From: Candidatus Thalassarchaeaceae archaeon
GTDB taxonomy: Archaea; Thermoplasmatota; Poseidoniia; Poseidoniales; Thalassarchaeaceae
DNA: 48,521 bases
Reading direction: 5' to 3'
Assembly: GCA_030747675.1 (NCBI GenBank)
Contig: JASLKH010000056.1
Span: 1-48,521 of the forward strand
Within the stretch, counting starts at the first letter, position 1. The number at the start of each line of letters is the position of its first letter. Position numbers and translations under genes: made by a program. Below the pieces are notes generated by a model. That model made no database searches and was not told the DNA's origin. It worked only from the letters and a program-made list of their open reading frames with translations. Below, piece by piece: positions 29,743 to 47,904 of this stretch.

Positions 29743-29796
29743 GCCAATAAACTAAAACTGTTAAAATCAATTAATTACAGTTAATTAAAAAAAAAA

Positions 29797-29989
29797 GTAA
29801 TTAATTTCAATTAATTTAATTATGGTGGAATATATCTCCAAAACCCGACACCCTGGTCGACTAAGCCGAATTGATTGATTCTAGAGGGTTTTTCCAAATG
29901 GACTCTAAAAACCCGATCCAAACGAGTGGGTCAACAGCTACACCGAAACTATCTCAAAATATGTAATTAATTGAAATTAATTCAATTAT
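29797..29989. repeat. AT-rich inverted repeat pair, 29797-29823 and 29963-29989
   Basis: gtaattaatttcaattaatttaattat and reverse complement of gtaattaattgaaattaattcaattat share aattaatttcaattaat. Confidence 0.65.
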
Positions 29990-30005
29990 TCCGAATAATA
30001 TCCGA

Positions 30006-30014
30006 ATTAAATAT
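30006..30014 (+). promoter_or_regulatory. Candidate archaeal TATA box for the 30-48 kb cluster
   Basis: ttaaatata lies about 30 nt upstream of ATG 30042, consistent with leaderless initiation. Confidence 0.45.
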
Positions 30015-30017
30015 AAG

Positions 30018-31016
30018 ATGTGCCTTGTACGCACACATTGTATGGAGACAGCCAAACCAATCCCATCTTCATTTGTCACACGCTTGATGGATGAGGCAAA
30101 ACAAGTAGGTTTGAGCACAGACGAATACTGCAGACTCTTGTTGAACAACGAATCCTTTTACAAACAAAACACCACAACATTTGAAACCGGATCAAACCCG
30201 TTTAAACAACTCAAAGGAAAACAACTCAATCCATCAATCCTAAGCGAAACTATTGACGCCCACCCCTTTACAGAAAATGCATTGGCCGGACATATCAACC
30301 GACTCCTACCTCTCAAAGTAGGGTGCAGGATATTATGGTCAATGATTGATGATTCAGGCATAGGACCAACTCCACGCCAATTTCGTTCAACCATTGCATC
30401 AAAAGCCCATGCATTCAGAATTTTTCTGAAAGGAACGGATGAAAACCAAGCCCGCCCTAGAGGGGATCGCTTACACTCTTCATTCCCAACAAGTAGTGAT
30501 GCTGCTGTGAATAGATTCCTCAACCAATACATGCTTCGAAGAACAGGTACAGGAAACAAATACCCGACAGGAGCGTTGCACGACTTCGGACTTATTGCAA
30601 TATCAGATTCGGGAACGGTACAATTCACAGAGACAGGTCGTAAATTCACTCTTCTTCTGAACCCAGTTATTGATGAAGGAAATTTCCGAGGCGCATCATT
30701 TTCTGCTGATGAACAAGTTCTAATTTTGTCTCAAGTGCGAAGTGAAATGAATCGGGAATGGAAATTTATGCGCCATATCCTAGATGGAATACATCTTGGT
30801 TCAAACACTCCAACATCGCTTCTTTCTAGAATATCTCGCCGTTATGGCCCCGGTACAAAGGCCGATTGGAGCAACTCCGTAATGCCCCACATGCGCAGCG
30901 GTGTATTGGGTAGAATGCAAGCACTTGGTCTAATCAAACGCACATTCACAGAAAACCGAGTTGAGTACAGAGTAACACCTCTTGCACTCGTAATTCTTGA
31001 AGAGGACATGGCTTAA
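30018..31016 (+). CDS. Putative DNA-binding regulator (winged-helix-like, tentative); start may be ATG 30042
   Basis: First gene of the cluster; C-terminal MQALGLIKRTFTENRVEYRVTPLAL resembles wHTH wing; no TM segment. Confidence 0.5.
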   Translation: MCLVRTHCMETAKPIPSSFVTRLMDEAKQVGLSTDEYCRLLLNNESFYKQNTTTFETGSNPFKQLKGKQLNPSILSETIDAHPFTENALAGHINRLLPLKVGCRILWSMIDDSGIGPTPRQFRSTIASKAHAFRIFLKGTDENQARPRGDRLHSSFPTSSDAAVNRFLNQYMLRRTGTGNKYPTGALHDFGLIAISDSGTVQFTETGRKFTLLLNPVIDEGNFRGASFSADEQVLILSQVRSEMNREWKFMRHILDGIHLGSNTPTSLLSRISRRYGPGTKADWSNSVMPHMRSGVLGRMQALGLIKRTFTENRVEYRVTPLALVILEEDMA

Positions 31017-31028
31017 GGGGGTGGGAAT

Positions 31029-31919
31029 TTGATTGCAATACCATGGTCCGCCGCAATATTATTTTCCATATTAGCTGCAATGATCACCTTCGGCCTCTAT
31101 GCAATTCTTTCTGCTGAATCAAATCCCGCTCATGCGGCACGCCTCACCAATGTTCGCGCCTCACCGGTTGCAGCTCCAGCATCCCGTCCTCAGCGATTTG
31201 CATTGGAGGACGAAATGGTTAGAATGAGCAAACCCAAAATTGAGACGCGAGAGTCCGACACCCTTTCTGATCACGATTCTGCTGAGTTGGTCGAAGAAGC
31301 CTCTGTCGAATATGAGGATGAAGATTCCCAACCAATCGAGGATATTCCAGAAATAGAGGAAGAAGCAGAATCCGAGGAAACCCCTGGCACCAATTCCCTT
31401 GATAGTGAATTTTTACTTGAAGAAATTGGGAAGGAATGGCAAATTAAAGCCGGAAGCGGACAATCAGCAACAACATTGGATGAGGCGACCGGAGAGGCAG
31501 TACGAGAATCCGACACATCCGAATTCGAAGAACGCCTTAACCGAGAAGGAGCTCAAACAGGAAAGGTCCAAGTGAGCCTTATTTGGGATAATACGAATGA
31601 TTTGGACCTCAGTGTAGTTTGCCCTTCAGGTGAAAGAATATCTTTTGATCACAAAACGTCACGTTGCGGAGGTAGGTTGGACATTGATATGAACGAATCC
31701 CCCACTAGTGAACAACCCGTTGAGAATATTTATTGGTCAAAGGATTCCGCTCCGAAAGGAGATTACAAGGTCTTTGTCGAACACTTTGAACATCATGCTG
31801 AAGAGGATTTAACAAATTTCCGAATTCTTGTAAACGATGGGGACAATAATAAGGAATTCAAGGGCGAAATTACTAACGACGAACCACCACAATTAGTGTG
31901 TGTTTTTTCTGTTGAATGA
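31029..31919 (+). CDS. N-terminally membrane-anchored acidic protein with C-terminal DUF2135/YfaP-like domain (TTG start)
   Basis: N-terminal TM; VQVSLIWDNTNDLDLSVVCPSGERISF...GGRLDIDMN...ENIYWSKDSAPKGDYKVFV. Confidence 0.8.
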   Translation: MIAIPWSAAILFSILAAMITFGLYAILSAESNPAHAARLTNVRASPVAAPASRPQRFALEDEMVRMSKPKIETRESDTLSDHDSAELVEEASVEYEDEDSQPIEDIPEIEEEAESEETPGTNSLDSEFLLEEIGKEWQIKAGSGQSATTLDEATGEAVRESDTSEFEERLNREGAQTGKVQVSLIWDNTNDLDLSVVCPSGERISFDHKTSRCGGRLDIDMNESPTSEQPVENIYWSKDSAPKGDYKVFVEHFEHHAEEDLTNFRILVNDGDNNKEFKGEITNDEPPQLVCVFSVE

Positions 31920-31928
31920 GGGGTATAA

Positions 31929-32375
31929 ATGCGTTTGACTCGAAAATCACGCCGCAGACAGCGGCTAATTAATCGGGCAAAAACCATCGAGGCGTTGCAA
32001 ACAATAGCCAACGACATTCAAGCTGCATTTGATAACCGTGAAATCACTCACAACGAGGCCGTGATTTTAGGTAATCAAATTCAAAGATGCGCTGATTTGA
32101 TAGATGGCACACAACTGGTGTACGCAATTTCAGATCGCGACGCATACCGCCGATTAATTGAAGTATATCTCGATGACGGAATTCTATCAAGAACAGAACA
32201 AATATTACTTTGGGACGAACGCAGGAAACTGGGTATTTCAGAGGACGCCCACACCCGATTACTTGTGGCATTAATCGCTCGTTACCAGCGGCAAGGCCGA
32301 CCAGTTCATGTTCAAAATGCACCCCGCTCTATCCCAAAATCGGGCGCCGATGAAAATACAGGAGGGAGCAATTAG
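31929..32375 (+). CDS. Hypothetical basic helical protein with TerB-like half
   Basis: LIEVYLDDGILSRTEQILLWDERRKLGIS resembles TerB-like pattern. Confidence 0.5.
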   Translation: MRLTRKSRRRQRLINRAKTIEALQTIANDIQAAFDNREITHNEAVILGNQIQRCADLIDGTQLVYAISDRDAYRRLIEVYLDDGILSRTEQILLWDERRKLGISEDAHTRLLVALIARYQRQGRPVHVQNAPRSIPKSGADENTGGSN

Positions 32376-35300
32376 TTGGCAATTGAAGTAGGGTATATCG
32401 TTGCAGCCTTAATTGCAGGTGTACTAATATGGCAAGCCACATCACAATTGGGGTCAAAGCGCCGCACCCGCACATCGTTATTGGAAACCTTCGCGATAGA
32501 AGACATTGCGGTTGCCGATGAACCATTCACGCCACGTAAAGATTCAAACGCATCTTTACTCACACCCCGAATTGAATATCAAGAAGAATTAATCCCATTC
32601 GGATCAACACATTCTTTGGAAAAAGCACCAGATATAAAGAACGAAAAAGAAAGTAACTTAGAGGGAGAGGTAACCACACTAAAAGAAGTCGCCATCGAAC
32701 GTTATTCAGTTAGAGAGAGATCGAATGAGAAAGTTTCTGAATGTAAGGAACTTATCCAATTAATCAAAGATTTACGAGAGCAATACAATGTAGAAATAGA
32801 TGATGAATTCTTAGAAGGGCCATTAGAAGGACTAACATTAGCAGAGTTGGACATTCGCCAATCATCTCTCTTGGAAGTTTATGATAAATTATACCAACAT
32901 TCCTTCCAAGAGCAAGTTCAAAAAGTTCGTCGGGAGCAGCTTGAATTCGAATCAAAAGTTGGTGAAAAAGAAAACCAAACAGCGGCTGGAAAACTGGCAA
33001 ACCTCGCCGATGAATTATCCAATTTACGTCGCGAAGAAGAATTGTATCGCCAAATTCAATCTTCAAAAACAACCAAAACTCTTGAATCATTAGATATGTC
33101 TAACCTCGATGTAGATACAACAAAACGCATCACGGCACACTACGACTTTTACTATTCTAGATTAAGTGAAATAGAACGACTACGCACAGAATCCGAAAGA
33201 TACGAATTCCATACCAACGCCATTCTAGATTGTGATGAAAAAGAGAAGTTACTGACAATGGTCTTTGACGGCGTCAACACTAGGATGCGAGTTGAATTGG
33301 AAGAGCGGAGAGAAAAACGGGCAATAGCACTTGATTTACGCGATAAGATGGAGCAACAAAATGCCAACGCGGCAGAACTTCGCCTAGAAATCGAAACAGC
33401 AGTAAGCACAACAGCAATCGATCAAATACAAATCACAGGAGTTAGCCCCCTGCAAGAAAATGAACTCACCGAATTACTCCATGTTACGCGTCAGCAACTG
33501 GCATATTCAGAACTTGAAACTATAATACAGAATTGCGAATATGTTTTGGAACTAGATGCAATACACTTTGAAGGGGTGAATGAAGAACAACTCACAGCCC
33601 TCATTGAGATAAGAGCCAACAAAAGAGCCGAACTGGTCGAGTTTGCTAAACTGGAGAAATTTGAGGAACAATACACTGCATATCTCGACTCAATGCCTGG
33701 GATAGATGACATTGAGGAACTTTTAGGGATAGAAATTGAAAACGTGTCAGAATCTCAAGCCCAGGAATTAGAGAATCTCCGACTTTCTAGATTGGATCAT
33801 TTAGAAGAAATTGAGAGGATACGAATTGAACAAGAACAAGCAGAAAACTTTGAAAATCTCAGGAAACAACTTGAATCAGCGAAGACCTCTAATGAGGTTG
33901 AAGCAATTGTAATCGAAGGGGTCAACGAAGATCAAGAATTAGCGCTGACCGAGATTAAATCAGAAGTATTCGAGATTCTGTTAGAAGATGAAAAGGTAAC
34001 AGAATATGTTGAAAAGGCAGAAAAAGCAAGCAAATCCCCTCCCTCTCCGGATAATTTTGATTTCGACACCGAGTCAACATTTAGGACACGCGTTAAAACA
34101 TTAGGTGCAAAGGATGGCCTCCTTCGCCTTAGTTTACTCTGGAACAATAAGAATGATTTGGACCTAATTGTTCGAACTTCAAAAGGAGAAATTATTCACA
34201 GAGGTTCTCGAAATTCATCTTGTGGTGGAATATTGGATTTAGAAATGAATGCCAAACCAGAGATGAGTTCAGCGATGGAGAACATTGTGTGGCCCAACGG
34301 AAAGATCCCCCCCGAAGGAACATACAACATTTTCATTTGGCATCGGAACCGCCACCAAAAATTGCGAAGAACAGATCCAACAGAATATACACTACGAGCA
34401 AAAGTCGGTGCAGAGTATTTCCAATATGAGGGAAAAATTAGTTATGGGGACAATTTACGATTAATCGCCTCAATTGAAGTCCCCGAATCGAATACAATGC
34501 AAAATAGAATGGTCACTGAAGGCAATTTGTATCAAGAATTACGAAGTACTGCAAAATCAGCAAAGAAGTTGAAAGAATTTCCAGAAATAGACGATGAACT
34601 CTCATCATTACACAAAGTGATGTTAGAGCGAATCATTGAGAAAAAGACATCAGAAATCAAAGAAAAAGCGGAAAGACGCCGTGCAGAAAAACAAGCAGCA
34701 GAATATTCACGCATAATACTGGAAATCGAATCATCAATGAATTTGGATGAATTATCAGCAGTTCGATATGACAAGGCTTCCGATGAAGAAATAGTCACTA
34801 TTGAAAAATTGATTACTAAGCGAAGTAAAGCAATCGAATCAGGCTTAAAGAAGCAAGAAATTATGGAGATGAAACAAAGAATCCAGGATTTCAAAACCCA
34901 AATTAATGAAGCCAAAACACTCGTTGATCTTTCATCAATAATTTTCGATGACATCGAAAAAAGAGACGCCATTACTCTACAAAGACTACGTACAGCTAGA
35001 CGAAAAACTCTCCAAAAGAAACTTTCAACAGACGATGTCGAGAAAGATAAACAAGATCGCTTACACAAGGCTTTGAATGAAGCCTACAGTCGTGGAGGCC
35101 TGCAACCATTACCTGCCGATGAGGGCCGACCATCGGCATTCAATGAGCGCCTAGAGGACGCCAATGCAGGCATCGGAGATGTCCAAATATCACTCTTGTG
35201 GGACAACAAAAATGACTTCAATGTTCTAGTGATTACCCCCTCACAAGAAATTATTCATCCTCGGAATCGAAAGTCATCAGATGGAGGATATCAGGATATT

Positions 35301-35543
35301 GAAATGAATCAGAAAGGCGAATCAAAGGAACCTATTGAGAATATTTTCTGGCCTGAAGGCAAGGCCCCAAAAGGCCTTTATTACATCTACATACATTTCT
35401 ATAAAGAGCATCAATTATTCAGAAAAATTGACATTTCTGAATGCCGAGTCCAAATCTTATATCAAGGACAACGGACAGAATATGCTGCACAGATGTCACT
35501 TTCTAATAAATTACAATTCATTACAATGCTTAAGGTGGAATAA
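32376..35543 (+). CDS. Membrane-anchored 1055-aa coiled/helical-repeat protein with two DUF2135/YfaP-like domains (TTG start)
   Basis: N-terminal TM; LLRLSLLWNNKNDLDLIV...GGILDLEMN and VQISLLWDNKNDFNVLV...GGYQDIEMN; repeated helical units. Confidence 0.8.
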   Translation: MAIEVGYIVAALIAGVLIWQATSQLGSKRRTRTSLLETFAIEDIAVADEPFTPRKDSNASLLTPRIEYQEELIPFGSTHSLEKAPDIKNEKESNLEGEVTTLKEVAIERYSVRERSNEKVSECKELIQLIKDLREQYNVEIDDEFLEGPLEGLTLAELDIRQSSLLEVYDKLYQHSFQEQVQKVRREQLEFESKVGEKENQTAAGKLANLADELSNLRREEELYRQIQSSKTTKTLESLDMSNLDVDTTKRITAHYDFYYSRLSEIERLRTESERYEFHTNAILDCDEKEKLLTMVFDGVNTRMRVELEERREKRAIALDLRDKMEQQNANAAELRLEIETAVSTTAIDQIQITGVSPLQENELTELLHVTRQQLAYSELETIIQNCEYVLELDAIHFEGVNEEQLTALIEIRANKRAELVEFAKLEKFEEQYTAYLDSMPGIDDIEELLGIEIENVSESQAQELENLRLSRLDHLEEIERIRIEQEQAENFENLRKQLESAKTSNEVEAIVIEGVNEDQELALTEIKSEVFEILLEDEKVTEYVEKAEKASKSPPSPDNFDFDTESTFRTRVKTLGAKDGLLRLSLLWNNKNDLDLIVRTSKGEIIHRGSRNSSCGGILDLEMNAKPEMSSAMENIVWPNGKIPPEGTYNIFIWHRNRHQKLRRTDPTEYTLRAKVGAEYFQYEGKISYGDNLRLIASIEVPESNTMQNRMVTEGNLYQELRSTAKSAKKLKEFPEIDDELSSLHKVMLERIIEKKTSEIKEKAERRRAEKQAAEYSRIILEIESSMNLDELSAVRYDKASDEEIVTIEKLITKRSKAIESGLKKQEIMEMKQRIQDFKTQINEAKTLVDLSSIIFDDIEKRDAITLQRLRTARRKTLQKKLSTDDVEKDKQDRLHKALNEAYSRGGLQPLPADEGRPSAFNERLEDANAGIGDVQISLLWDNKNDFNVLVITPSQEIIHPRNRKSSDGGYQDIEMNQKGESKEPIENIFWPEGKAPKGLYYIYIHFYKEHQLFRKIDISECRVQILYQGQRTEYAAQMSLSNKLQFITMLKVE

Positions 35544-35545
35544 CA

Positions 35546-38500
35546 ATGACAGGAAACACAGAAAAAACGTCGAAAGTGGCACCCACCCTCCTTATTTTGA
35601 TTATGCTAATCCAAATTTTATCCCCATTCCAAATCCCCAATAATTTGCAATCCGAGCAAGAAATATCAGATTCTACATTAGGGCGAACAGCCTACCCTGA
35701 CATCAATATTACAGCAATTATTTGGATTGGACCCTCATATTATTGCATTCTATGTGTTATTGATGTGCTGGCACCTGTTGAACAAGAAGTCATGATAAAA
35801 TTCCGCAACGATGGTTTACTGAAGGCTGACAGCACTCATTTCCGATTCGATGTTAATTCAGTAGAAATAGCCAATCATACATTTTTCAATGTCATGCCTG
35901 GGGAGGAACAAAACTACATTTTCACATGGACCCCAACTTTAGGTAATGGCCAAACATTCCAAGCATATGCAGCAATAACACCCGTGGGCGCAGACCCAGA
36001 TATGTCCAATAATCAAAAAATCAAGGGTTTCAACTCTTACTTTGATCAAAACGATGGAGATATTTACTCCGATACATTACCACCGGGAGGAACCAGGTTA
36101 CCAGGGGAACCATCAAGTGTTTCTGTTGGTGTTAGAAATGCAGGAAACACAGAAAGTGAAGTTACGACATTAATCTCCCTCACCCCCAGTGGGGGGGGGC
36201 CACCGACTGAATTTTTCTCACAACCGATCAATTTGTCTGCTGGAAGTGTGGCAGAACCAGCTCAAGTAACGTTATCCTCAGTGATGATTGATGGTACAAA
36301 TCTCTCAGGTAGTTATATGATGGCAGGCAATGTTTACTTCAATAGTACACTAGCCCCTCAGGCAGTCGTATCAATTGTCCCGAGAATAGTCACCTTTAGT
36401 CCATATCGGGCCACCATAGTGTCCCCAAGTGACCGTGCAGTCGAACCAGGAAACTCAGCCACCCTGACATTCATAGTTCAAAACATAGGCGAATCTGCAG
36501 ACCGATTCAATATTTCAGTACACTCAGTGCAAGGCTGGTTTGACTCTTCATCCCCGTCCGCACCCGCTTCACAAACTCCAATTATATCACCGGGCTCTTC
36601 AGCCGTAATCCTAGTCCCTGTATCAGTCCCATTAAACACAAATCGTTCAGAATCAGATCTAATTACTGTGGAAATTGAGAGTGAAGGCGCAGTACCATCG
36701 TACAATGTTTCAGGATCCTCTGCTGTTATGGCAGGAGACATATTACAAGGAACTCTAAACACATCAGCGTGGAATGTGCAAATAATTCCGGGTCAAACAG
36801 AATCGATACAATATACGTTAAACAACACAGGAACATCTCCATCATTCTTTGAACTTGATACAGGCTTTGCTCAGGTTGCACCCGGTTGGTCAGCCACAAT
36901 TGAACCTGAAACAACACCCTACATGACTGTTGGAGCATCCATTGTAGTTACAGTCACAGTATCCCCTCCTGCTCTTTCATTACCATTTGATCCAACAACG
37001 AAACTCGCTGAAGGCAATTCCTTGACATTGTGGACAACTGTCCAACCCACATTACAAGACCAAACTGCAGGCGCCCCAAATGTTCAGGAAACAATTCTTG
37101 AAGTCCAACCTGCAGTTATGATTGAATTTATCACAGATGAAACAGATCTAATAGTTGACATATCTGAATTAAATTCAGGTGCGATTGGAAAGCACATCTA
37201 TTTCGATATGGAACTTCGTCATAATTTAATGAGTAATTTAAGCTCTTTAGTTGACATAGAATTGCGAACAGCCCCTAGTGCTTTTGACCCCTCGAGAAGC
37301 GGAGTAGGCTCACAAGAAATTTTGAGATGGAATAGTTCTGTGACACCGAATAATGCAACAATGAATCCAGGTGATACACAGGCCCTCTTGGCTTCAGCAC
37401 TGGGGCCATTCGAAAGTCCCCTTGCCGGAATCATAAGCATCGATGTTATTGCCAATTTGACATTATCTGGAGCCTTAAGTGGTATTCAGGCCCCAGAAAC
37501 AACTCTAACATGGAGTATTTCCATTCCTGAATTAACTGAGGTGGAAATCGGAATCCCAGAACCCACAATAGTTGTCCCTGGAATCTCCGGCACAGCATCA
37601 GTAAACATCAACAATACAGGGAACCACAAGACAAATCTGTCATACACAGTAGAAGGTCCGGCAGGTTGGACAGTTTCAACTTCTCCAACGGAAGTTACAG
37701 GGTTGGGCTCAACATTCGATACATACCCTTCTATTGGAACCGATAATACAACTGTTTCAGTGACAGCAATAGCCCCTGCTCTTTGGCGTGCCGATGATGT
37801 ACCAGACATAACCCTGACAGTTTTGGATGAAAATGGTGAAAATGTCACCCAAGAAAATATACCTTTCTTGGTCCAAGAATTGATCGAAGCCGTACTTTTA
37901 CCCGATGAAGCAGCAGCCTATCTCCCAGTTAATGAAACAGAAATTATCCTGTTGAAAGTAACAAATTCAGGTAATAGTCATCAAGAATTTTCTATGATGG
38001 TTGAGGATACCTTAGCAGACATAAACTTACGAGTCCTCTCAAATTCAACGATGTCACTAGATCCCGGTGAAGATGCCTTCGTTGATATCGAAGTTGAATC
38101 AGGCCAATTCGCACGAGCCGATGAAAACCATAGTTCAGTTGCAACTCTATATCACAACGGTGTCGGCATCGCTCAAACCTCAATCTTTGTAGAAGTATTA
38201 CCTAATCACGACATCGTATTCGAACACCATCCTGATTACTCAGTTACGCCCGGCAAGGAAGCACCAATCGCATTCAATATTACAAACAACGGAAATCTCG
38301 ATGAGAATATCAATTTCTCAGCAATTCTTCCAGAAGGTTGGAGTGCAGAAATAAGCCCTGAAAACATGACAATATCAGCCGGCACCCAGGAAGTAAAAAC
38401 AGTCAATGTAGTCGTTAATGTACCACCAATGTCAAGTGGTTCAGGCCCTGAAGCTGACAGTACTCATGAAATGCTTTTCACTGCTACAAACGCTACCGAC

Positions 38501-40330
38501 AATGTAATTGCTGGAACTACAGTAGTGAATTTTACGACAGTCCCCATTTTCGATATTGAAGCTGAGAACTTCCCCGATTTAATTGAGATGTTACCAGGTG
38601 AGCAACGAACGTTCGAGGTCGAGATTTCAAACGCAGGAAACCAAAATGTGTCCTTAGACATTGATTGCACAGCAGGACCCCCCTTCGATCGCTGGTTAGT
38701 TTCAAATTGTGATCAAAGCAATTATTCTCTCGACATTGGCGAAACACGAAGGATCAACTTTACAGTTGAAAATTCTGCATTGGTGCCCTACAATGGCGAT
38801 GAGGCCGATTTAACTTTGACATTTTCACCACAAGACAACCAATCAGGAGATAGAACAATATCTTCAGAATTAGAAGTCAAAAGAATGTGGACGGAAGAAG
38901 AGTACATGGTCACAGGAGACGGAGATTCTGGAGGGTATCCAATAGATGTCAATTGGATGCATGTCCAATCCATCGGACAAACAGCCGACGTACGTCCGAT
39001 TGATTACGAATTAAAACTCATTAATTCAACCCGTTTGATTAACACCTCATTGTATAATGGAAACCTCAATTGGGGCTTTGAATTGATTACCAGTAATGGC
39101 GCCCAAACATTCAATCCAAATTCTATTCCAACAAATTTCTCCCTAGGTGCGGCCCAGCCATTACAATTGAACAATTTACAATTTAGGCTAGACCTCCCAC
39201 CATCGGCAATTACCCCACCTGGAGATGGCTGGGTTTTGGAATTTGAACTCATCCACGCAGAAGAAGGAAATGCCACCTCAACCACAGTATTTCTTAACGT
39301 GACAGTTGATAATTGGGCAGACCCATCTATTGTATCAATTTTAATCAATGATGAATCCTTTTTCGAAGAATCTAATTCGGGGACAATAATTGCCACGATT
39401 GAAAATAATGGCAACGCTCCAACAGTCTCCAATCTGACTGCAGAACTAACTTGCGATCCAGGGATTACAATTCTCAGCCCCCCAGTTAAATCAAACATCA
39501 ATCTAACAGCCCATCAAAGCAACTATCCATTGGAATGGAGCATCAAATCAGATGCATTAAATTGGTGGCAATCGAGTCAAAATGTGGATTGCAAAGTAAC
39601 ACTTTCTTCGAATGGGGAAATGATAGGGGATCTTGAATCAAACAATGTACTCGAATCACCAATCGAATTGAATTCATGGTCCCTTCCTCTATACATATTG
39701 GTTCCATTAATTAGCGCCCTCTTCATACTGTCTAGCCGCCTCTTAAGAAAGGCAAAAGAGGACGAAAGATCATTGATGTTGAGTGCATACTCGGGTTCAA
39801 TATTACTTGGGTGCGCAACCCAATTCGGACTGGGTTCCGGACCAAACCTTGCCCTTGCAGCAACATCGCTAATTTGGACCGCTTTGATAACTTTGCATTC
39901 AGCAGGATTTGAATTCCCTGCCGTCTTATCCGATCGGCAAAACCATCTTCGAGGAAGCGAATCAATTATTGAAGATCACGATGCTGAAATTGATCGAATC
40001 ATCAATCAACTCAGAGTAAAAATATCATTCGCCCCAATTGGTTTCATCCTCATTGCACTCTTGATGCCTTCTGACATCGCATGGACACTTGAGAATATAG
40101 GATCCAGCGCCCTATATTTGTTCATGAGTGCCTTGATTGTTGAATTGACAATTCGTAGAACATTAGCAACATGGCTTTCTATCTTCGATCAATTAACAGT
40201 AGTAGAAATTGAGTCCCAAGATCTTCTCCAGCTACTAGGAACACCATCTACAGATTTACGTAGAATTACAATAGGACAACGATGGGGACAATCCCATGAT
40301 GTCAATGTGGAGGTGGAAGGCAATGTCTGA
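35546..40330 (+). CDS. Giant surface protein with repeated CARDB/NEW3-like beta-sandwich domains and C-terminal multi-TM region
   Basis: N-terminal hydrophobic segment; repeated N(T/N)GN motifs in Ig-like context; C-terminal hydrophobic segments starting WSLPLYILVPLISALFIL. Confidence 0.82.
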   Translation: MTGNTEKTSKVAPTLLILIMLIQILSPFQIPNNLQSEQEISDSTLGRTAYPDINITAIIWIGPSYYCILCVIDVLAPVEQEVMIKFRNDGLLKADSTHFRFDVNSVEIANHTFFNVMPGEEQNYIFTWTPTLGNGQTFQAYAAITPVGADPDMSNNQKIKGFNSYFDQNDGDIYSDTLPPGGTRLPGEPSSVSVGVRNAGNTESEVTTLISLTPSGGGPPTEFFSQPINLSAGSVAEPAQVTLSSVMIDGTNLSGSYMMAGNVYFNSTLAPQAVVSIVPRIVTFSPYRATIVSPSDRAVEPGNSATLTFIVQNIGESADRFNISVHSVQGWFDSSSPSAPASQTPIISPGSSAVILVPVSVPLNTNRSESDLITVEIESEGAVPSYNVSGSSAVMAGDILQGTLNTSAWNVQIIPGQTESIQYTLNNTGTSPSFFELDTGFAQVAPGWSATIEPETTPYMTVGASIVVTVTVSPPALSLPFDPTTKLAEGNSLTLWTTVQPTLQDQTAGAPNVQETILEVQPAVMIEFITDETDLIVDISELNSGAIGKHIYFDMELRHNLMSNLSSLVDIELRTAPSAFDPSRSGVGSQEILRWNSSVTPNNATMNPGDTQALLASALGPFESPLAGIISIDVIANLTLSGALSGIQAPETTLTWSISIPELTEVEIGIPEPTIVVPGISGTASVNINNTGNHKTNLSYTVEGPAGWTVSTSPTEVTGLGSTFDTYPSIGTDNTTVSVTAIAPALWRADDVPDITLTVLDENGENVTQENIPFLVQELIEAVLLPDEAAAYLPVNETEIILLKVTNSGNSHQEFSMMVEDTLADINLRVLSNSTMSLDPGEDAFVDIEVESGQFARADENHSSVATLYHNGVGIAQTSIFVEVLPNHDIVFEHHPDYSVTPGKEAPIAFNITNNGNLDENINFSAILPEGWSAEISPENMTISAGTQEVKTVNVVVNVPPMSSGSGPEADSTHEMLFTATNATDNVIAGTTVVNFTTVPIFDIEAENFPDLIEMLPGEQRTFEVEISNAGNQNVSLDIDCTAGPPFDRWLVSNCDQSNYSLDIGETRRINFTVENSALVPYNGDEADLTLTFSPQDNQSGDRTISSELEVKRMWTEEEYMVTGDGDSGGYPIDVNWMHVQSIGQTADVRPIDYELKLINSTRLINTSLYNGNLNWGFELITSNGAQTFNPNSIPTNFSLGAAQPLQLNNLQFRLDLPPSAITPPGDGWVLEFELIHAEEGNATSTTVFLNVTVDNWADPSIVSILINDESFFEESNSGTIIATIENNGNAPTVSNLTAELTCDPGITILSPPVKSNINLTAHQSNYPLEWSIKSDALNWWQSSQNVDCKVTLSSNGEMIGDLESNNVLESPIELNSWSLPLYILVPLISALFILSSRLLRKAKEDERSLMLSAYSGSILLGCATQFGLGSGPNLALAATSLIWTALITLHSAGFEFPAVLSDRQNHLRGSESIIEDHDAEIDRIINQLRVKISFAPIGFILIALLMPSDIAWTLENIGSSALYLFMSALIVELTIRRTLATWLSIFDQLTVVEIESQDLLQLLGTPSTDLRRITIGQRWGQSHDVNVEVEGNV

Positions 40331-41186
40331 ACAGGTTTTACCTCCAACTCAAGAGAGTTACAGAGCCCAAGTTACGAGATTAAATTTAATTCTTGACGAG
40401 CACATTAGAATGGTCCAAGAATCAATTGTAGACAAAGATGCTAGGGATGCTAGGAAGAGTATTCAGCAAGCGCGTTTAGACATTGATAACCTACGTTTGC
40501 AAGTCGGTAGAATGCATCGGGCGATTGGAATGTTGCACACACTTATGCGAGACCGCTCAACAACTGAAACTGAATTGGTTGACATATTGTTGACAATGAA
40601 AACAGCTGAAACCCTAATCATGCGAGGTGCCTTTGATGAATCTGCATTACAACTCGAACGACTAGCAGAACATCTATTGGCAAACAGTGCTGCTTTGAAT
40701 CCCTTTATTTTCTATGAATTTTGGATGGGAGTTGAAGCAAGGTGGAGTTCAGATTCAGAAAGTGGAAATTTATTGGTGAGGATAGAAAACACAAGCGAAA
40801 ACATCATTCCTGGATTCAATATTAAAGCCCCAGTTCCTCCAAATTGGAGAGCATCCCCAGACTCTCAATTTACAGGCACATTGAATCCTGGAGACATTTC
40901 GGATTTGGCATTTGAAATAACCCCGTCTGCAATGGCAGCAATTAGAGAAGTAGGCGCCCCAGGGAGCCTCCAAAAAAGTCTAACAATACAAACAGGATAT
41001 ACACTTTCAAACCATGGACTAACCATGGATTGTAGAGTAAAAAATACATCACAAGAGACCCTATATGACACATTATTAATGCCTTGGATTCCACCTGGTT
41101 GGAAAACACCTTCATGGCCATTTATCCGTAATTTAGATCCGAGTTCCACCGAATTGGTATCAATTTCATTGGAGTTGATCAATTGA
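40323..41186 (+). CDS. Cytoplasmic-looking protein: N-terminal coiled coil, C-terminal beta-sandwich (track ORF begins 40296)
   Basis: MSEQVLPPTQESYRAQVTRLNLILDEHIRM...; 8-bp overlap with upstream gene; no TM. Confidence 0.65.
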   Translation: MSEQVLPPTQESYRAQVTRLNLILDEHIRMVQESIVDKDARDARKSIQQARLDIDNLRLQVGRMHRAIGMLHTLMRDRSTTETELVDILLTMKTAETLIMRGAFDESALQLERLAEHLLANSAALNPFIFYEFWMGVEARWSSDSESGNLLVRIENTSENIIPGFNIKAPVPPNWRASPDSQFTGTLNPGDISDLAFEITPSAMAAIREVGAPGSLQKSLTIQTGYTLSNHGLTMDCRVKNTSQETLYDTLLMPWIPPGWKTPSWPFIRNLDPSSTELVSISLELIN

Positions 41187-41224
41187 TAATTTGGTTGGGG
41201 CAGGATAGGGCTTGTGGGACTACA

Positions 41225-41263
41225 ATAATATACCTCATGGGACCTAATTGAAAACACAAGGAG
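41225..41263 (+). promoter_or_regulatory. Archaellin promoter/RBS candidate: TATA-like aataatata and SD aaggag
   Basis: aataatata near 41225; aaggag at 41258-41263 with 8-nt spacing to ATG 41272. Confidence 0.55.
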
Positions 41264-41271
41264 TTGAGTAA

Positions 41272-41850
41272 ATGAGACAAAAAGAACAAGCCCTGAAAGA
41301 GAATGGAATGGCCGCGATCGGAATCGGTGCAATGATCATATTCATTGCCCTGATTTTAGTAGCCGCAGTAGCATCGACAATTATCATCAAAACAGCTGAA
41401 GAACTTCAACAGAGAGCTGAAGCAACCGGCGACGATACACGTGACGAAATTAGTGGTAAAATCCAACTGGTTGGCGCATATGTTAGTGATGATAACGCTG
41501 CAGGAAACGCTGCAGATGAAATCACACTAATCGTGCAACTCAGTGCCGGTTCAGATACAACACTTCTTTCTAATATGGATTGGTTCATCGTTTGTGATGG
41601 TGGTGCAGGTACTTCAGATGTCAACACCGATGACTTTGACGGCGTTGCAACTGATCTTGACGGTACACTACTCACGGTCGGTTCGTCAGTCAATGCCGGT
41701 GAAACATTCCTAGTTCCAATTGACACCTCAACAAACTGTCAACCCGGTGTTGGTGACGAACAAGAACTTCGTGTAATCATCGATGGTGGTGGCGAAACTT
41801 ACGCCCAACTACATTACAATAGCGTAGACAACGGCGACACAATCGTCTGA
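41272..41850 (+). CDS. flaB: Archaellin
   Basis: KENGMAAIGIGAMIIFIALILVAAVASTIIIKTAEELQQRAEATGDDTRDEISGKI matches class III signal peptide/archaellin N-terminus. Confidence 0.93.
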   Translation: MRQKEQALKENGMAAIGIGAMIIFIALILVAAVASTIIIKTAEELQQRAEATGDDTRDEISGKIQLVGAYVSDDNAAGNAADEITLIVQLSAGSDTTLLSNMDWFIVCDGGAGTSDVNTDDFDGVATDLDGTLLTVGSSVNAGETFLVPIDTSTNCQPGVGDEQELRVIIDGGGETYAQLHYNSVDNGDTIV

Positions 41851-41900: not shown

Positions 41901-42722
41901 GTGGATAGTATGGGTATATTCAGCAAACTTTTCGGCGGGAAATCCGAAACAGAACTCGTTGAGTCTGAATCATCTCGTCGATTAGAGGCATTGTCAGGAC
42001 ATTACATAGATTCAACTTTAATTCCCGATGAAGCAGTCCCCATCGAAGAGGACGCTTGGACATTAGCACCATCTCCTACTCGTGCAAGAGTGGGTACAAC
42101 TGGCGCAGAACCAATGATTAAAGAGGAACCAGCACCCCAAGGGGTTGCTGCAATTGACACAAAAGAGATTGAACAAAAAATGGACAACCGCTTCGATAGA
42201 ATAGAAGCGACCATGGCAATGATGGATGCCAGATTAACCCAGATTCGTGAAACTACAGAAACATCCCACATATTGCCTACAGACACATTAGTTACTGCAG
42301 AAGAAGACTCAGAAGAAGACTCAGAAGGGCAACAATCTGACTCAGACGAGGGAGAATCGACATCCATCAGTCAAACAGTGAGTCTATTGGATTTGTATGA
42401 AGACCGAGTGGCAGACCTCAATCCCTTTCTTGAACGAAGACCAGGTGATCAAGATGCAGGACTATCGGTAACTACGAGCGAAATTGCCGCGTTATTATTG
42501 GATAATTTGTCTGGACCAGCCACCACTACATTTCTTGTCAAAGCGAAGGAAAGTGGAACAATTAGTGCCGCTGAAACCAAAGAATTGGGAGGCCTCATCC
42601 AACTCGCCGATCCCGCCGTTAACAACAACGGTGGTGAGCATTTACCACATAGAGAATTACTAATGTTCAATGCAATGATTGAAGCTTGGCGCGTTGCTAA
42701 AACCAATGATGAGGGGGCCTGA
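41901..42722 (+). CDS. Archaellum FlaC/D/E-like protein (start likely ATG 41910)
   Basis: MGIFSKLFGGKSE; C-terminal GLSVTTSEIAALLLDNLSGPATTTFLVKAKESGTISAAETKEL; position in cluster. Confidence 0.65.
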   Translation: MDSMGIFSKLFGGKSETELVESESSRRLEALSGHYIDSTLIPDEAVPIEEDAWTLAPSPTRARVGTTGAEPMIKEEPAPQGVAAIDTKEIEQKMDNRFDRIEATMAMMDARLTQIRETTETSHILPTDTLVTAEEDSEEDSEGQQSDSDEGESTSISQTVSLLDLYEDRVADLNPFLERRPGDQDAGLSVTTSEIAALLLDNLSGPATTTFLVKAKESGTISAAETKELGGLIQLADPAVNNNGGEHLPHRELLMFNAMIEAWRVAKTNDEGA

Positions 42723-42725
42723 AAT

Positions 42726-43127
42726 GTGGGTGGCTCCGTTAGTATCGCAGCATTGATTGTTGGAACCACTCTGCTAGGGATTTTTGCCCTAGCGTCACTA
42801 TCACTTTCAGAAAGTACAAAACAGGCAGCGGAAGCAGGAAGCGAGTCAATCCATGAACCTGAAATTAGATTGATTAATGCTTCAGAGAGTAGTGGTATTG
42901 TGAATGTAAATATCACAAACACAGGGTCTGAAACAATTTCTTTCGATCACCTTTGGCTCAGCATTGATGGGGATGCCCCCATTCGTACAAGCAGCCATTA
43001 CAACCTCACTCTGTCTTTATTCCCTGGTGAAACTCAACATCTTACACTGACTGGAACAGGAGCCAACTCCCCTTCTAGAATTTCAGCAGCTTGTTTCGGG
43101 GCCCATTCAGCGGTTGCATTCACATGA
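42726..43127 (+). CDS. flaF: Archaellum protein FlaF
   Basis: N-terminal TM (SIAALIVGTTLLGIFALASLSL), beta-rich remainder, position before FlaG. Confidence 0.75.
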   Translation: MGGSVSIAALIVGTTLLGIFALASLSLSESTKQAAEAGSESIHEPEIRLINASESSGIVNVNITNTGSETISFDHLWLSIDGDAPIRTSSHYNLTLSLFPGETQHLTLTGTGANSPSRISAACFGAHSAVAFT

Positions 43128-43133
43128 GGTGTT

Positions 43134-43622
43134 ATGATGGCTGATGGTGGTGCCAGTGAATTGGTGATGTTGGTAACGGGTTTACTGACGGCAGGAATTG
43201 TTGCGAGTTTACTAGTAGCATCATGGGGTAGTTTAGCAGAGATTGTTGGCGATACTCAAACCCAAATCCAAGTCGACTCCAAGACCCGGGCATCATTAGC
43301 CAGTGACCCAATGCAGATTGCATGGGATCAGGCGACATGCAATCTCACAATCCATATCCAAAATTCAGGGGAACTCCGCTTGAAGATGGATAATATTGGT
43401 GCAATCGTCAATGGGACACCAACATCTGTTTCAGGTTCCCAATTAATTGGTTCTGCAATTGCATGGACAAGTGGTGAAGTAGCAGAATTCTATCTATGCC
43501 CTACAGGTTTGAATTTGGCAACAGGACAGGAGACACCCTTGATTATCATTGTTCAAAGTGAGGAATATAGTGGAGATATTTCCGGCAAGCATTCCTTTTC
43601 AGAGGTGATTAGAATTGCCTGA
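43134..43622 (+). CDS. flaG: Archaellum protein FlaG
   Basis: ELVMLVTGLLTAGIVASLLVASWG TM followed by beta-rich domain; position between FlaF and FlaH. Confidence 0.8.
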   Translation: MMADGGASELVMLVTGLLTAGIVASLLVASWGSLAEIVGDTQTQIQVDSKTRASLASDPMQIAWDQATCNLTIHIQNSGELRLKMDNIGAIVNGTPTSVSGSQLIGSAIAWTSGEVAEFYLCPTGLNLATGQETPLIIIVQSEEYSGDISGKHSFSEVIRIA

Positions 43623-44310
43623 AGATATTGGTTTTGATTTTGAGTTAGAAACGGATAGCCTTTCGGATAGTTTGGGAAGATATCTCCCAAGAAGATCATT
43701 GTATGTGGTATCAGGAGCAATTGGTGCCGGTAAGAGTTTAATTTCTCAGCGATTAGCTTACGGTTTAGTTGCACATGGTGCGAAGTTGGCTTTAGTTACA
43801 ACCGAACTAACAACCAGAGGATGGCTTGAACAAGTAGCCAGCCTTGGATACCCACTAAGCGACGCAGCTGAATCCGGACAATTCACATTATTATCCCGAT
43901 TTGGAGTTATTTCCGACGAAGTTGAAGAGCAAGTGGGAATCGAAGAAATACTCGAGTCAAAACCCCTTCAATCTGCGGATATTTCAATCATAGATTGCGC
44001 CTCAACAATCTTACAAAACTCAGAAGTATCAGCAGATGAATTACTGAGTAAGTTACGAAACTTTTGTTCGAAGAACCGGTCATTGATGTTACTCATAGAC
44101 CCCGATGAAATGGCCCCTGAAGTCACGCGTGCTTTGACATCATCAGCCGAAGTAGTCATTGAAATGAGAACTTCTGAAATCGGAGGGGGGTTGAATCGCA
44201 CAGTCGCAGTCACCCGATTCCTTCGTGCTGCAGGCCCAGTCCAACCTCGCATCGGCTGGAGAGTAGAACCAGGGATGGGCTTCATCGTAGACATCACTGC
44301 GGTCAGTTAG
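43615..44310 (+). CDS. flaH: Archaellum ATPase-like protein FlaH (TTG start)
   Basis: VVSGAIGAGKSLISQRLAYGL Walker A; ISIIDCAS Walker B; KLALVTTELTTRGWLEQ. Confidence 0.88.
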   Translation: MPEDIGFDFELETDSLSDSLGRYLPRRSLYVVSGAIGAGKSLISQRLAYGLVAHGAKLALVTTELTTRGWLEQVASLGYPLSDAAESGQFTLLSRFGVISDEVEEQVGIEEILESKPLQSADISIIDCASTILQNSEVSADELLSKLRNFCSKNRSLMLLIDPDEMAPEVTRALTSSAEVVIEMRTSEIGGGLNRTVAVTRFLRAAGPVQPRIGWRVEPGMGFIVDITAVS

Positions 44311-44320
44311 GGTGAGATAA

Positions 44321-46048
44321 ATGGAAGTCGAGGAAGAGGGCGAAGACGGCATATTTGCCAGAGGCGATCTTGACGGAGTTATGAATCGGTATGATCACGT
44401 ACGAACATGGGTTGAGGATTTTGAAGGGAAGCATGGGGCACGCCCATTCTATTATGGAGATCTAGATAGGGATGCAAGAAAGGATCCAATCAATTTAATC
44501 TATCATCTAAGGGGCCCATTATTCGCTCATGTTTACCGGCCACCCGATGACCAAGAGGGTGCAGGAAGCACCCTTTGGTTTGCGATCGAACCACATTTGA
44601 CCGAAGAAGAGGAAAATATGAAGCAAGAAATTGTTGAAAGGTTACTGAGAGAGGCCCCTAGTGCCCCATCATTCTCCTCAGATGCCGAATTTGAATCGAT
44701 GCTTGAAGGCATGATTGCCAAACATACCATAGTTTCAAGCGAATCAGCATCACTCACGGATGCTACAACATCAGTTCGCAGATTTTTGGGTTTTGGTGAA
44801 CCAAAAATTTCTGTAAATGAAAAGCAGTTAGAGCGTCTGACTTACACAATTATCCGCGATCTTGTTCGATCAGGTCCTTTAGAGTCCCTTCTCTCAGATG
44901 AAATGCTTGAAGATATTCACGCAATCGGTTTGAGATATATCAGCATGGATCACAAAGTGTTTGGAATGGTAACATCAAATATACGATTTCGAGATAGAGA
45001 AATGCTTGAAAGATATCTCCGAGCAATGTCGGAACGAATTGGACGACCTGTGTCCGACAGTAAACCAATTATCGATGGGGCACTTTTGGATGGTAGCAGA
45101 ATCAATATTGTTTATTCCGATGACGTATCGATGTTGGGATCCTCTTTTACCATTCGTAAATTCGCAGAAGAGACAATTTCAATCACTCAATTGATTCAAT
45201 GGGGAACAATGTCTGCAGAAGTTGCTGCATATGTGTGGCTGTGCTTGGAGAACGGAATGTCCTTACTGGTGTCTGGAGAGACAGCATCTGGTAAAACAAC
45301 CACTTTGAATGCCATTCTCCCTTTCATTGACCACAATGTCAAAATTTACTCGGCTGAAGACACACCTGAAGTTAAAGTTCGACATAGATTATGGCAACGT
45401 TTAGTGACGAGAGATTCAAAAAACGAGGACTCCCGAGTAGAAATGTTCGATCTCCTGAAAGCAGCTTTGAGAAGTCGACCCAGATACATCATTATTGGTG
45501 AGATTCGAGGAGCAGAAGGCGCCACAGCATTCCAAGCGATGCAAACAGGTCACCCAGTGATAGCTACTTTCCACGCATCATCAATTGTGAAAATGATTCA
45601 ACGTTTCACTGGCGACCCCATCAATGTACCAATGAGATTCTTTGACAATCTAAACTTTGCAATTTTCCAAGAAGTGGTTGAAGCACCAGGTGGAGGAATT
45701 GCTCGTAGAATTACTGGAATTGATGAGGTGATTGGTTACAACAAGCATGCAGACGGTGTCCTAACCAGAGGCATGTTTGACTGGGACCCAGTTAGAGATA
45801 AGCACTATTTCCGTGGGATGTTCCAATCACATTTGATGGAAAATAAGATGGCTGCTTTGATGGGATTCGAGAATAAGCGTGATATTTACGAAGAGATGGC
45901 AAGAAGAAAAGAAGCCCTCCAAAGAATGGTTGATCGCAACCTTACTCACTATGATGATGTGTTCGATTTGCTTGATGTTTATTACCAGCAGGATTGGGAA
46001 GCCTTCTCCAAGGCAATCGATATTTGGACACCAATTGGAAGCGAATGA
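44321..46048 (+). CDS. flaI: Archaellum motor/assembly ATPase FlaI
   Basis: SLLVSGETASGKTTTLNAIL; IIIGEIRGAEGATAFQAMQTGHPVIATFHA. Confidence 0.95.
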   Translation: MEVEEEGEDGIFARGDLDGVMNRYDHVRTWVEDFEGKHGARPFYYGDLDRDARKDPINLIYHLRGPLFAHVYRPPDDQEGAGSTLWFAIEPHLTEEEENMKQEIVERLLREAPSAPSFSSDAEFESMLEGMIAKHTIVSSESASLTDATTSVRRFLGFGEPKISVNEKQLERLTYTIIRDLVRSGPLESLLSDEMLEDIHAIGLRYISMDHKVFGMVTSNIRFRDREMLERYLRAMSERIGRPVSDSKPIIDGALLDGSRINIVYSDDVSMLGSSFTIRKFAEETISITQLIQWGTMSAEVAAYVWLCLENGMSLLVSGETASGKTTTLNAILPFIDHNVKIYSAEDTPEVKVRHRLWQRLVTRDSKNEDSRVEMFDLLKAALRSRPRYIIIGEIRGAEGATAFQAMQTGHPVIATFHASSIVKMIQRFTGDPINVPMRFFDNLNFAIFQEVVEAPGGGIARRITGIDEVIGYNKHADGVLTRGMFDWDPVRDKHYFRGMFQSHLMENKMAALMGFENKRDIYEEMARRKEALQRMVDRNLTHYDDVFDLLDVYYQQDWEAFSKAIDIWTPIGSE

Positions 46049-47850
46049 GGGATTATATGAAACGTCTCCCATTATACAAAATCGCAATTAAAAGGTTAGA
46101 AATGCCAATTAGCACATATCTACTAACTTATGTCTTGCCTGCTGGGATGACTGGCCTTCTTCTTTCCCTTTTTCTTTTCTTTACATTAGGCTCAATGTTC
46201 GTCGGGGCTTCAGGAATATTCCTGCTGGTAATGTTCCCAACACTTGCTCTTACAGCAACTTTAGTTTGGCCCCTAATTCAAGCCGCCCGGCACGCGGTTT
46301 TGATTGAGAAAGAAATGCACATGTTCATCACTCGAATGGGAATTCTGAGTATAGGCGAAGTGAACGCACAATCGATGTTCGATATTTTACGACAAATGGG
46401 CGATTATGGGGCACTTGCAGAAGAAGTAAAATCCATTGAAACTCTTGTTGAAAAATGGCACACTAGCCTTCCGGAGGCCGCCCGGATTATTGGGCGCCAG
46501 AGCGCCTCCCCAATTTGGGGTGATTTTTTGGATCGAATGGCCTTTTCAGTAGAAGCAGGCCAACCAATTGATGAATTCATGAAGGCTGAGCAAAAGACAT
46601 TTGCAAAGGAATTTGACACACTTTATGATACAAGATTAGAATCCATTGACATGCTTAAGGAAATTTATATCTCATTAACAACAACTGGAATATTTGCAAT
46701 TGTAGTTTCGGGTATTCACTTGGTATTGTTCGTTACAGATGATTACGGCTCCTCGATTATTGGTATTATGACACGGATTAGATGGGTTTTATTGGCAGCA
46801 GTAGTATTCGTCTCTATTCAAGTTGCAATGTTAGCCGCATTCAGGGCAATAGTGCCCGACGACCCAATTTTTGGGCGACATGACTTTGATACAGAATACA
46901 TCTCGACATTACGACAAATGTGGGTTGCTGCAGGGAGTGCAGCATTACCCATTCTTATTTCTGCAATAGCAGTAATTGTGCTGTATTTTGAAACAATATC
47001 GAAATCTTGGGATCAGTATGGATTAGTTCTTGCAGCCTTAATTTTCACACCATTTTTGATTCCAGGTATTACAGCATCTCGTGAAGAAAAGGGAGTAGTC
47101 CGAAGAGACGATTCTTACCCAGGTTTCATTCGTGCATTAGGGGGAACAGCACAAGCTAGGGCAGCAGAACCTTCGGCCACAATCAAGGCATTGCGAGGTA
47201 TTGATTTCGGCTCTTTGAACCAACCAATAGCAGGATTAGAAAGTCGGTTGATGCTTAGAATTGATTCGGAACGCAGTTGGGATTGGTTCTCTGCAGAAGT
47301 GAATTCTGCTATGGTTTCAAGATTCAACAGAATTTATCTTGAGGGTGCTCAGTCAAGTGGTGAACCTGCTGCAGTTGCAGATTTGGTCAGTCAAAATACG
47401 ACAAACCTCCTCTCACTTCGTCGTCGAAGATCACTATCGGCTAGTACGATGCGAGGAGTTGCGTATGGACTTTTAGTGGCAACAATAGTTTCATTCAATA
47501 TTGCAATCGCAGTAGTCTTCCGCCTTGGAACCGACGTTGCTGGTGTGGCCCAAGGAATGGGCGACATGGACTTCGGCGAAATCACATCAAATGCAGGAGG
47601 TCTTGGTTTACCAGTTCTTGAAGAATCTGGTGCAGTTGAACAAAATATTGTTTTGTTCAAAATAATTACATCGATTTTGATTATATTGATGGTTTTGATT
47701 TTATCAGCAATTGCAACAAGACTTAGAGGAGGTGGCATTTCATTAGCCTTGGGTCAAATAGCCACGATGATGTGGATTGCTGCAATTGCAAGTTGGCTTA
47801 CAGTATCCCTTTTGGATGCTACTTTAGGTGCATTTTTCGCTTCTGGATAA
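46045..47850 (+). CDS. flaJ: Archaellum platform membrane protein FlaJ
   Basis: MRDYMKRLPLYKIAIKRLEMPISTYLL...; multiple TM; 4-bp ATGA overlap with flaI; two T2SF-like halves. Confidence 0.9.
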   Translation: MRDYMKRLPLYKIAIKRLEMPISTYLLTYVLPAGMTGLLLSLFLFFTLGSMFVGASGIFLLVMFPTLALTATLVWPLIQAARHAVLIEKEMHMFITRMGILSIGEVNAQSMFDILRQMGDYGALAEEVKSIETLVEKWHTSLPEAARIIGRQSASPIWGDFLDRMAFSVEAGQPIDEFMKAEQKTFAKEFDTLYDTRLESIDMLKEIYISLTTTGIFAIVVSGIHLVLFVTDDYGSSIIGIMTRIRWVLLAAVVFVSIQVAMLAAFRAIVPDDPIFGRHDFDTEYISTLRQMWVAAGSAALPILISAIAVIVLYFETISKSWDQYGLVLAALIFTPFLIPGITASREEKGVVRRDDSYPGFIRALGGTAQARAAEPSATIKALRGIDFGSLNQPIAGLESRLMLRIDSERSWDWFSAEVNSAMVSRFNRIYLEGAQSSGEPAAVADLVSQNTTNLLSLRRRRSLSASTMRGVAYGLLVATIVSFNIAIAVVFRLGTDVAGVAQGMGDMDFGEITSNAGGLGLPVLEESGAVEQNIVLFKIITSILIILMVLILSAIATRLRGGGISLALGQIATMMWIAAIASWLTVSLLDATLGAFFASG

Positions 47851-47904
47851 AATCACAACTGATTTGAATGATTCCCTCGCCCGACAATCTAAGGAGGAGT
47901 GCCT

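Follow-up and report, generated by a model that had tools for sequence, protein, structure and literature searches.

In current models of the archaellum, the stator proteins ArlF and ArlG are held on the outside of the cell, normally by the S-layer, and the inside requires a ring (ArlX or ArlC/D/E) or a polar cap (PMC8978795, PMC12448462). S-layer-free Thermoplasmatales also swim, and how their stator is anchored is an open question (PMC12448462). Here we analyze a window of 48,521 nucleotides, which is one contig of a metagenome-assembled genome (MAG; 1.68 Mb, 78% complete) of the Thalassarchaeaceae (Marine Group IIb). Six intact long open reading frames (ORFs) lie head to tail on its + strand (30018-41186), leading into the genes for archaellin and FlaC/D/E, F, G, H, I, and J. 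This downstream half has the same order and content as the canonical euryarchaeal arl/fla operon, but here three genes precede it, encoding proteins that we call TerB-like, SURF, and CCBS, and that are not described for arl clusters in the literature compared. The original prediction, made from the sequence of the window, had seen the six ORFs as one tightly packed set of possible lineage-specific archaellum accessory, surface-anchoring, or surface-sensing components. The block is indeed intact, and this assignment is strongly supported for TerB-like, SURF, and CCBS, but it is not supported for a putative regulator (REG) and two DUF2135-like proteins (D2135a and D2135L). A single six-gene module is therefore rejected, as only the first three are found order-wide.

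Three genes linked to the archaellum of Poseidoniales

Gene content, order, co-occurrence, coupling, and predicted topology were computed directly. All compared genomes are MAGs, among which co-occurrence and gene order are correlations; absences from single MAGs carry little weight at such completeness, and the argument rests on patterns over many genomes. In a family set of 118 genomes, canonical FlaI (at least 69% identity, some being contig-end fragments) is present in 39, distributed over five genera. When the module was sought in genomes without an archaellum, the C-terminal membrane domain of SURF, a single-copy feature, turned up in none of the 79 FlaI-negative genomes, versus 37 of the 39 FlaI-positive ones, the other two carrying SURF fragments cut by contig ends. 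CCBS shows the same pattern (35 genomes by single-sequence search), to which a profile search adds one marginal match in a FlaI-negative genus (G064, E 5.5e-4), located on an Ig (immunoglobulin) domain of a larger surface protein. The association of SURF with FlaI gives a Fisher p of 1e-28 by genome and of 0.002 by genus, leaving out the mixed state of genus g4; the latter is the fairer value since the genomes are related. In this mostly fla-less genus, two contigs (G065:C202 and G074:C81) each carry the archaellum, SURF, and CCBS, with a FlaI 84-87% identical to that of the window genus, which would reflect either block transfer or mis-binning.

Gene order tells the same story across the order. 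The related named contigs belong to Thalassarchaeaceae and Poseidoniaceae (Marine Groups IIb and IIa), and in the 20 family loci that we drew, SURF and CCBS lie immediately 5' of archaellin wherever the contig permits. The two genes overlap or abut each other in nearly every locus. Poseidoniaceae have the order TerB-like, SURF, CCBS, archaellin(s), C/D/E, F, G, H, I, J, which is also found in Thalassarchaeaceae genus g7, while D2135L is inserted in g1. Because it recurs in two families and many genera, the arrangement is not due to chance. When 85,462 species genomes were searched with TerB-like, 177 relatives emerged, and the 80 best were analyzed; their records are titled as Poseidoniales types or, less specifically, as marine archaea, with the exception of one contig (L106) filed under an uncultured Rhodobiaceae bacterium, a Poseidoniales archaellum contig that is most likely mis-binned. 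Among the 78 of these with downstream sequence, all run into SURF (14 of them via D2135L) at distances of -13 to +44 bp, and all 37 loci of sufficient length go on to archaellum genes. Occurrence away from the archaellum was looked for and not observed at any TerB-like locus long enough to show it.

The comparison of neighbourhoods called for by the original prediction thus finds the three-gene core archaellum-linked throughout Poseidoniales, and we regard this link as strong: TerB-like, SURF, and CCBS are present only with archaellum genes, whereas the DUF2135 proteins are not so restricted. Outside the order the picture differs. In a phylum sample of 253 genomes, FlaI is found at E <= 1e-120 in 115 (41 Poseidoniales, 74 others), and CCBS in 40 Poseidoniales genomes, against three weak partial matches (E ~1e-6) among the 74 archaellated Thermoplasmatota outside. 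These three (G241, G246, G265) were rejected, having neither archaellin, FlaI, nor SURF adjoining, although weak matches of FlaH-like (KaiC) type do occur in the stretch from G265. As CCBS is otherwise lacking among the archaellated Thermoplasmatota sampled, the trio represents an addition within Poseidoniales and not a general part of the archaellum. Comparing one family with the other, SURF (mean identity 0.24) and CCBS (0.28) diverge at about the rate of FlaF (0.27), FlaG (0.28), and FlaC/D/E (0.30), and TerB-like (0.49) at about that of FlaH (0.51), while FlaI reaches 0.73. Such rates would be those expected of peripheral motor parts, with which they are compatible without constituting proof.

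Predicted topology and candidate roles of the three proteins

The ectodomain of SURF matches NPCBM-associated, CARDB, and similar Ig-type families of Pfam, and the protein scores 53.7 bits against the choice-of-anchor T surface proteins (NF041740), below their curated cut-off of 70. Its ORF measures 1570-1775 amino acids across both families, within which the ectodomain is colinear end to end and nearly gapless. A simple hydropathy and charge scan predicts as cytosolic a loop (residues 1455-1492) and the tail, in accordance with positive charges after the first C-terminal transmembrane (TM) helix. This loop is the most conserved part of the protein (mean pairwise identity of 0.42, versus 0.27-0.35 per 100-residue block).

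CCBS has neither a TM helix nor a signal sequence. Its start at 40323, an ATG behind the ribosome site GGAGGTGG, agrees with the orthologues, and its structure model (pLDDT 80.6, pTM 0.67) comprises four helices (10-119) followed by two beta sandwiches (133-200 and 220-282), for which the matches from a fold search were all partial and of a generic Ig type, with no E-value under 0.001. TerB-like is better conserved (62% mean column identity in the alignment of orthologues) and is modelled as a six-helix protein (pLDDT 85.6). The TerB identity originally given to it is rejected on both profile and fold searches: none of 21 orthologues matches PF05099 at E up to 1, and no TerB fold is found among the 50 best PDB matches to the model, nor any at E <= 0.001, so the name is kept here as a label. 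PDB sequence searches with CCBS, TerB-like, and D2135a yielded nothing convincing. A 336-residue paralogue of TerB-like, with a weak match to a zinc ribbon and another to true TerB (E 0.0063, also weak), is encoded elsewhere (G000:C40, L141:4857-5867) and is widespread in related genomes.

From these features we infer a mechanism, along with mutual and motor contacts and an anchoring function. The reading that we tentatively prefer, with a confidence slightly short of even, is that TerB-like, SURF, and CCBS form a Poseidoniales-specific, envelope-spanning anchor or scaffold of the archaellum. SURF would expose a long Ig-type array of fixed length, held by a five-helix membrane domain with conserved cytosolic loops, and CCBS and TerB-like would bind the cytosolic face beside the FlaC/D/E-H-I-J motor. 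Such a scaffold would most likely be static; it could provide on its outer side the hold for the FlaF/FlaG stator that is the job of the S-layer in other archaea, and could on its inner side steady or position the motor, as proposed for ArlX or the polar cap. A bolder version, in which S-layer anchoring of the stator has been replaced in Poseidoniales by a motor-encoded SURF anchor with CCBS and TerB-like as ring partners, making this a distinct architectural class of archaellum, seems to us rather unlikely.

Several points weigh against the anchor or scaffold. Poseidoniales may have an S-layer, and other stretches with related Ig domains abound in these organisms (10-17 matches per genome checked), which may leave no need for a dedicated anchor. 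Other archaellated Thermoplasmatota, S-layer-free ones included, do without such genes. TerB-like is missing from the archaellated genera g5 and g6, and is therefore not essential. Finally, archaellin may have its own promoter, in which case expression of module and filament would possibly not be strictly joint.

Among the alternatives, an adhesin or surface sensor survives best, although we consider it unlikely: the Ig array of SURF would bind particles or algal polymers, CCBS and TerB-like would relay the contact, and the archaellum would serve in attachment instead of swimming. An adhesive role of the whole system has been proposed for Poseidoniales, which have no identifiable chemotaxis genes and whose flaJ is enriched in particle fractions (PMC6461757), and the SURF ectodomain does resemble adhesin-type Ig repeats; yet adhesins usually vary, whereas this ectodomain is colinear and near-constant in two families, with no region of variable repeat number, and no ligand-binding domain was recognised in it. 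Less probable still is that the trio serves assembly or positioning only, marking the pole or the assembly site like a polar-cap organiser outside the torque path. The helical bundles predicted for the two cytosolic partners would suit this role, and the proteins that form the polar cap in Euryarchaeota have yet to be identified (PMC8978795), but an extracellular array of ~1340 residues would be odd for a purely cytosolic organiser. That the three are general surface-protein genes of an old shared operon, lost with the archaellum but without functional tie to it, is very unlikely, since order and coupling are kept while the flanks and the DUF2135 neighbours rearrange and both archaellated g4 genomes carry the archaellum, SURF, and CCBS on one contig, even if several losses, that of DUF2135 genes among them, seem to coincide in the genera of Thalassarchaeaceae without fla genes.

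The trio is strictly archaellum-linked and has a predicted topology that would suit such a part, and its hosts are uncultured archaea that rank among the most abundant in surface seawater. The finding touches on two open questions, namely how an archaellum is held without an S-layer and what makes up the cytosolic ring and polar cap (PMC12448462, PMC8978795), and provides named candidates for structural and binding work as well as a genomic marker for archaellated Poseidoniales.

Other genes and signals of the locus

Table 1. Features of the archaellum locus and its upstream block in the window.
Feature	Position	Strand	Description	Basis
Putative promoter	29956..30017	+	AT-rich near-palindrome AATTAATTGAAATTAATT and TATA-like AATTAAATATAAG; putative function	sequence and repeats
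REG	30042..31016	+	324 aa, putative DNA-binding regulator; longer ORF from 30018	ORF; start matches orthologues
D2135a	31029..31919	+	296 aa; one N-terminal TM helix, then an acidic linker and a C-terminal beta domain of DUF2135/PPC-like type (predicted cytoplasmic)	
TerB-like	31929..32375	+	148 aa, six helices, Arg-rich N-terminus, order-wide core	alignment, model, synteny
D2135L	32376..35543	+	1055 aa; one N-terminal TM helix, extended charged regions, and two domains of DUF2135-like type (predicted cytoplasmic)	
SURF	35546..40330	+	1594 aa; signal sequence, ~1340-aa ectodomain, about five C-terminal TM helices	Pfam, topology, C-terminal profile, conservation
CCBS	40323..41186	+	287 aa, soluble, predicted cytosolic; overlaps SURF by 8 bp	
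Gap before archaellin	41187..41271	+	TATA-like ACTACAATAATATACC, possible internal promoter; putative function	sequence
Archaellin (FlaA/ArlB type)	41272..41850	+		PF01917 Arch_flagellin 1e-24
FlaC/D/E-like	41901..42722	+	cytosolic ring/switch protein	weak PF05377; orthologous position
FlaF (ArlF)	42726..43127	+	stator	weak PF01917; conserved position
FlaG (ArlG)	43134..43622	+	stator	weak PF01917; conserved position
FlaH (ArlH)	43615..44310	+		PF06745 KaiC 1.1e-10
FlaI (ArlI)	44321..46048	+	motor ATPase	NF058587, 674.3 bits (cut-off 550)
FlaJ (ArlJ)	45994..47850	+	platform protein	NF004704, 374 bits (under cut-off 550); PF00482 2.9e-12

The ORFs of the block are separated by 12, 9, 0, 2, and -8 bp (with the CCBS start set to 40323), and a Shine-Dalgarno-like sequence precedes each gene from 31029 through archaellin. 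The first gene, REG, probably starts at 30042 rather than 30018, as a leaderless gene, because the TATA-like AATTAAATATAAG ends at 30017, some 25-35 bp 5' of 30042, no ribosome site precedes 30042, and the orthologues start at the equivalent position (MEATVTLPS...). Its N-terminus has a weak likeness to ribbon-helix-helix proteins, including a VapB-antitoxin-like match that is itself weak (E 0.078). REG adjoins the archaellum in Thalassarchaeaceae only (genera g1, g4, and g7); it is a lineage-specific addition and probably regulates the operon. Upstream of it (29760-30002) lie AT-rich near-palindromic repeats AATTAATTTCAATTAATT, a possible operator; the near-palindrome AATTAATTGAAATTAATT at 29965-29982 recurs inverted at 29799-29816. 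Just 5' of REG, the same strand encodes a protein of 1118 residues with a weak C-terminal PIN-domain match (26386-29742). A defence system was considered for the locus and rejected, as it relied on a single weak match (E 0.002).

The DUF2135 label is supported for the two membrane-tethered proteins only by way of their homologues: with a PF09906 gathering score of 22 bits, the window proteins themselves do not match and 3 of 18 orthologues match weakly, but Poseidoniaceae homologues pass at 25.8 and 30.4 bits. D2135a and D2135L resemble DUF2135 proteins in a domain homologous through these members, and differ in missing the cut-off, in their N-terminal TM tether, and in their predicted cytoplasmic location. 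Their proposed surface anchoring, in contrast, is rejected by the charge rule: in both proteins and their orthologues, several Arg/Lys follow the single N-terminal TM helix and none or few precede it, so the beta domains are predicted to be cytoplasmic (positive-inside rule). In each of the five Thalassarchaeaceae genera with an archaellum, D2135a adjoins it, in divergent form in three (one of the two g4 contigs stops short), and D2135L is limited to two genomes of g4 and the genus of the window. DUF2135 genes adjoin the archaellum in Thalassarchaeaceae only, and the Poseidoniaceae homologues lie away from it, in metabolic or transporter neighbourhoods; in G118, G128, and others (L151-L158), membrane-tethered members have as neighbours either 2-oxoacid:ferredoxin oxidoreductase or an ABC permease of FtsX type. 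No DUF2135-like relatives were found in fla-less Thalassarchaeaceae. This joint loss is suggestive but could be due to genome reduction. Both genes are lineage-specific additions to the locus.

Archaellin does not follow the block directly, as first described; the two are 85 bp apart, and the gap contains a TATA-like motif that is conserved within the family. In Thalassarchaeaceae (the window and the gaps in L013-L032) this motif, e.g., ACTACTATGATATACTTC, lies tens of bp before archaellin. In Poseidoniaceae, the interval between the CCBS stop and the archaellin start contains a conserved hairpin, TTCCACCC-loop-GGGNGGA, just 5' of archaellin (L042, L043, L044, L047, L049, L051-L054, and L057), both arms of which are altered together in L054 (CTC/GAG in place of CCC/GGG). 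The hairpin is visible in single-sequence folds of the leader; RNAalifold returned no structure from the Poseidoniaceae leader alignment, in which the variable loop is mis-registered. It is possibly a processing or regulatory element setting archaellin apart from the module.

Among the archaellum genes, FlaC/D/E, FlaF, and FlaG are divergent, yet orthologues were recovered in nearly all complete loci. The FlaJ start at 45994 is that of the longest ORF, and the true start is probably later. Directly 3' of flaJ, on the same strand, a contig-truncated ORF (47899-48521) looks by eye like an MscS-type mechanosensitive channel, though the fragment has no Pfam match. Two more type II/IV secretion-type ATPases, ~37-39% identical to part of FlaI (G000:C35, L148; G000:C95, L150), suggest that the source genome encodes other type IV filament systems.

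Comparison with known systems

With the S-layer-anchored ArlF/ArlG stator (PMC8978795, PMC12448462), the locus shares FlaF and FlaG and, as proposed, a fixed outer reference; SURF is however a single giant membrane protein and not a paracrystalline S-layer protein. The PilN/PilO-LysM-type genes of Chloroflexota archaella (PMC12488501) are likewise lineage-specific candidates for an envelope anchor directly 5' of archaellum genes, but are unrelated, being peptidoglycan-binding where SURF has Ig repeats. CCBS and TerB-like would parallel the ArlX cytosolic ring of Thermoproteota as lineage-specific cytosolic motor partners, but both lack a TM helix, and neither sequence nor fold searches match them to any known ring protein. 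Closest to our locus is the motility region of Marine Group II described by Tully (2019; PMC6336850), where syntenic orthologues, unannotated and mostly conserved in Marine Group IIa, stand beside flaAGHIJ; no assignment to families, topology, test of co-occurrence, or role was found for them in that account. The neighbourhood was hence already known; what is new, as far as the literature found shows, is its dissection, together with the tests and the candidate role.

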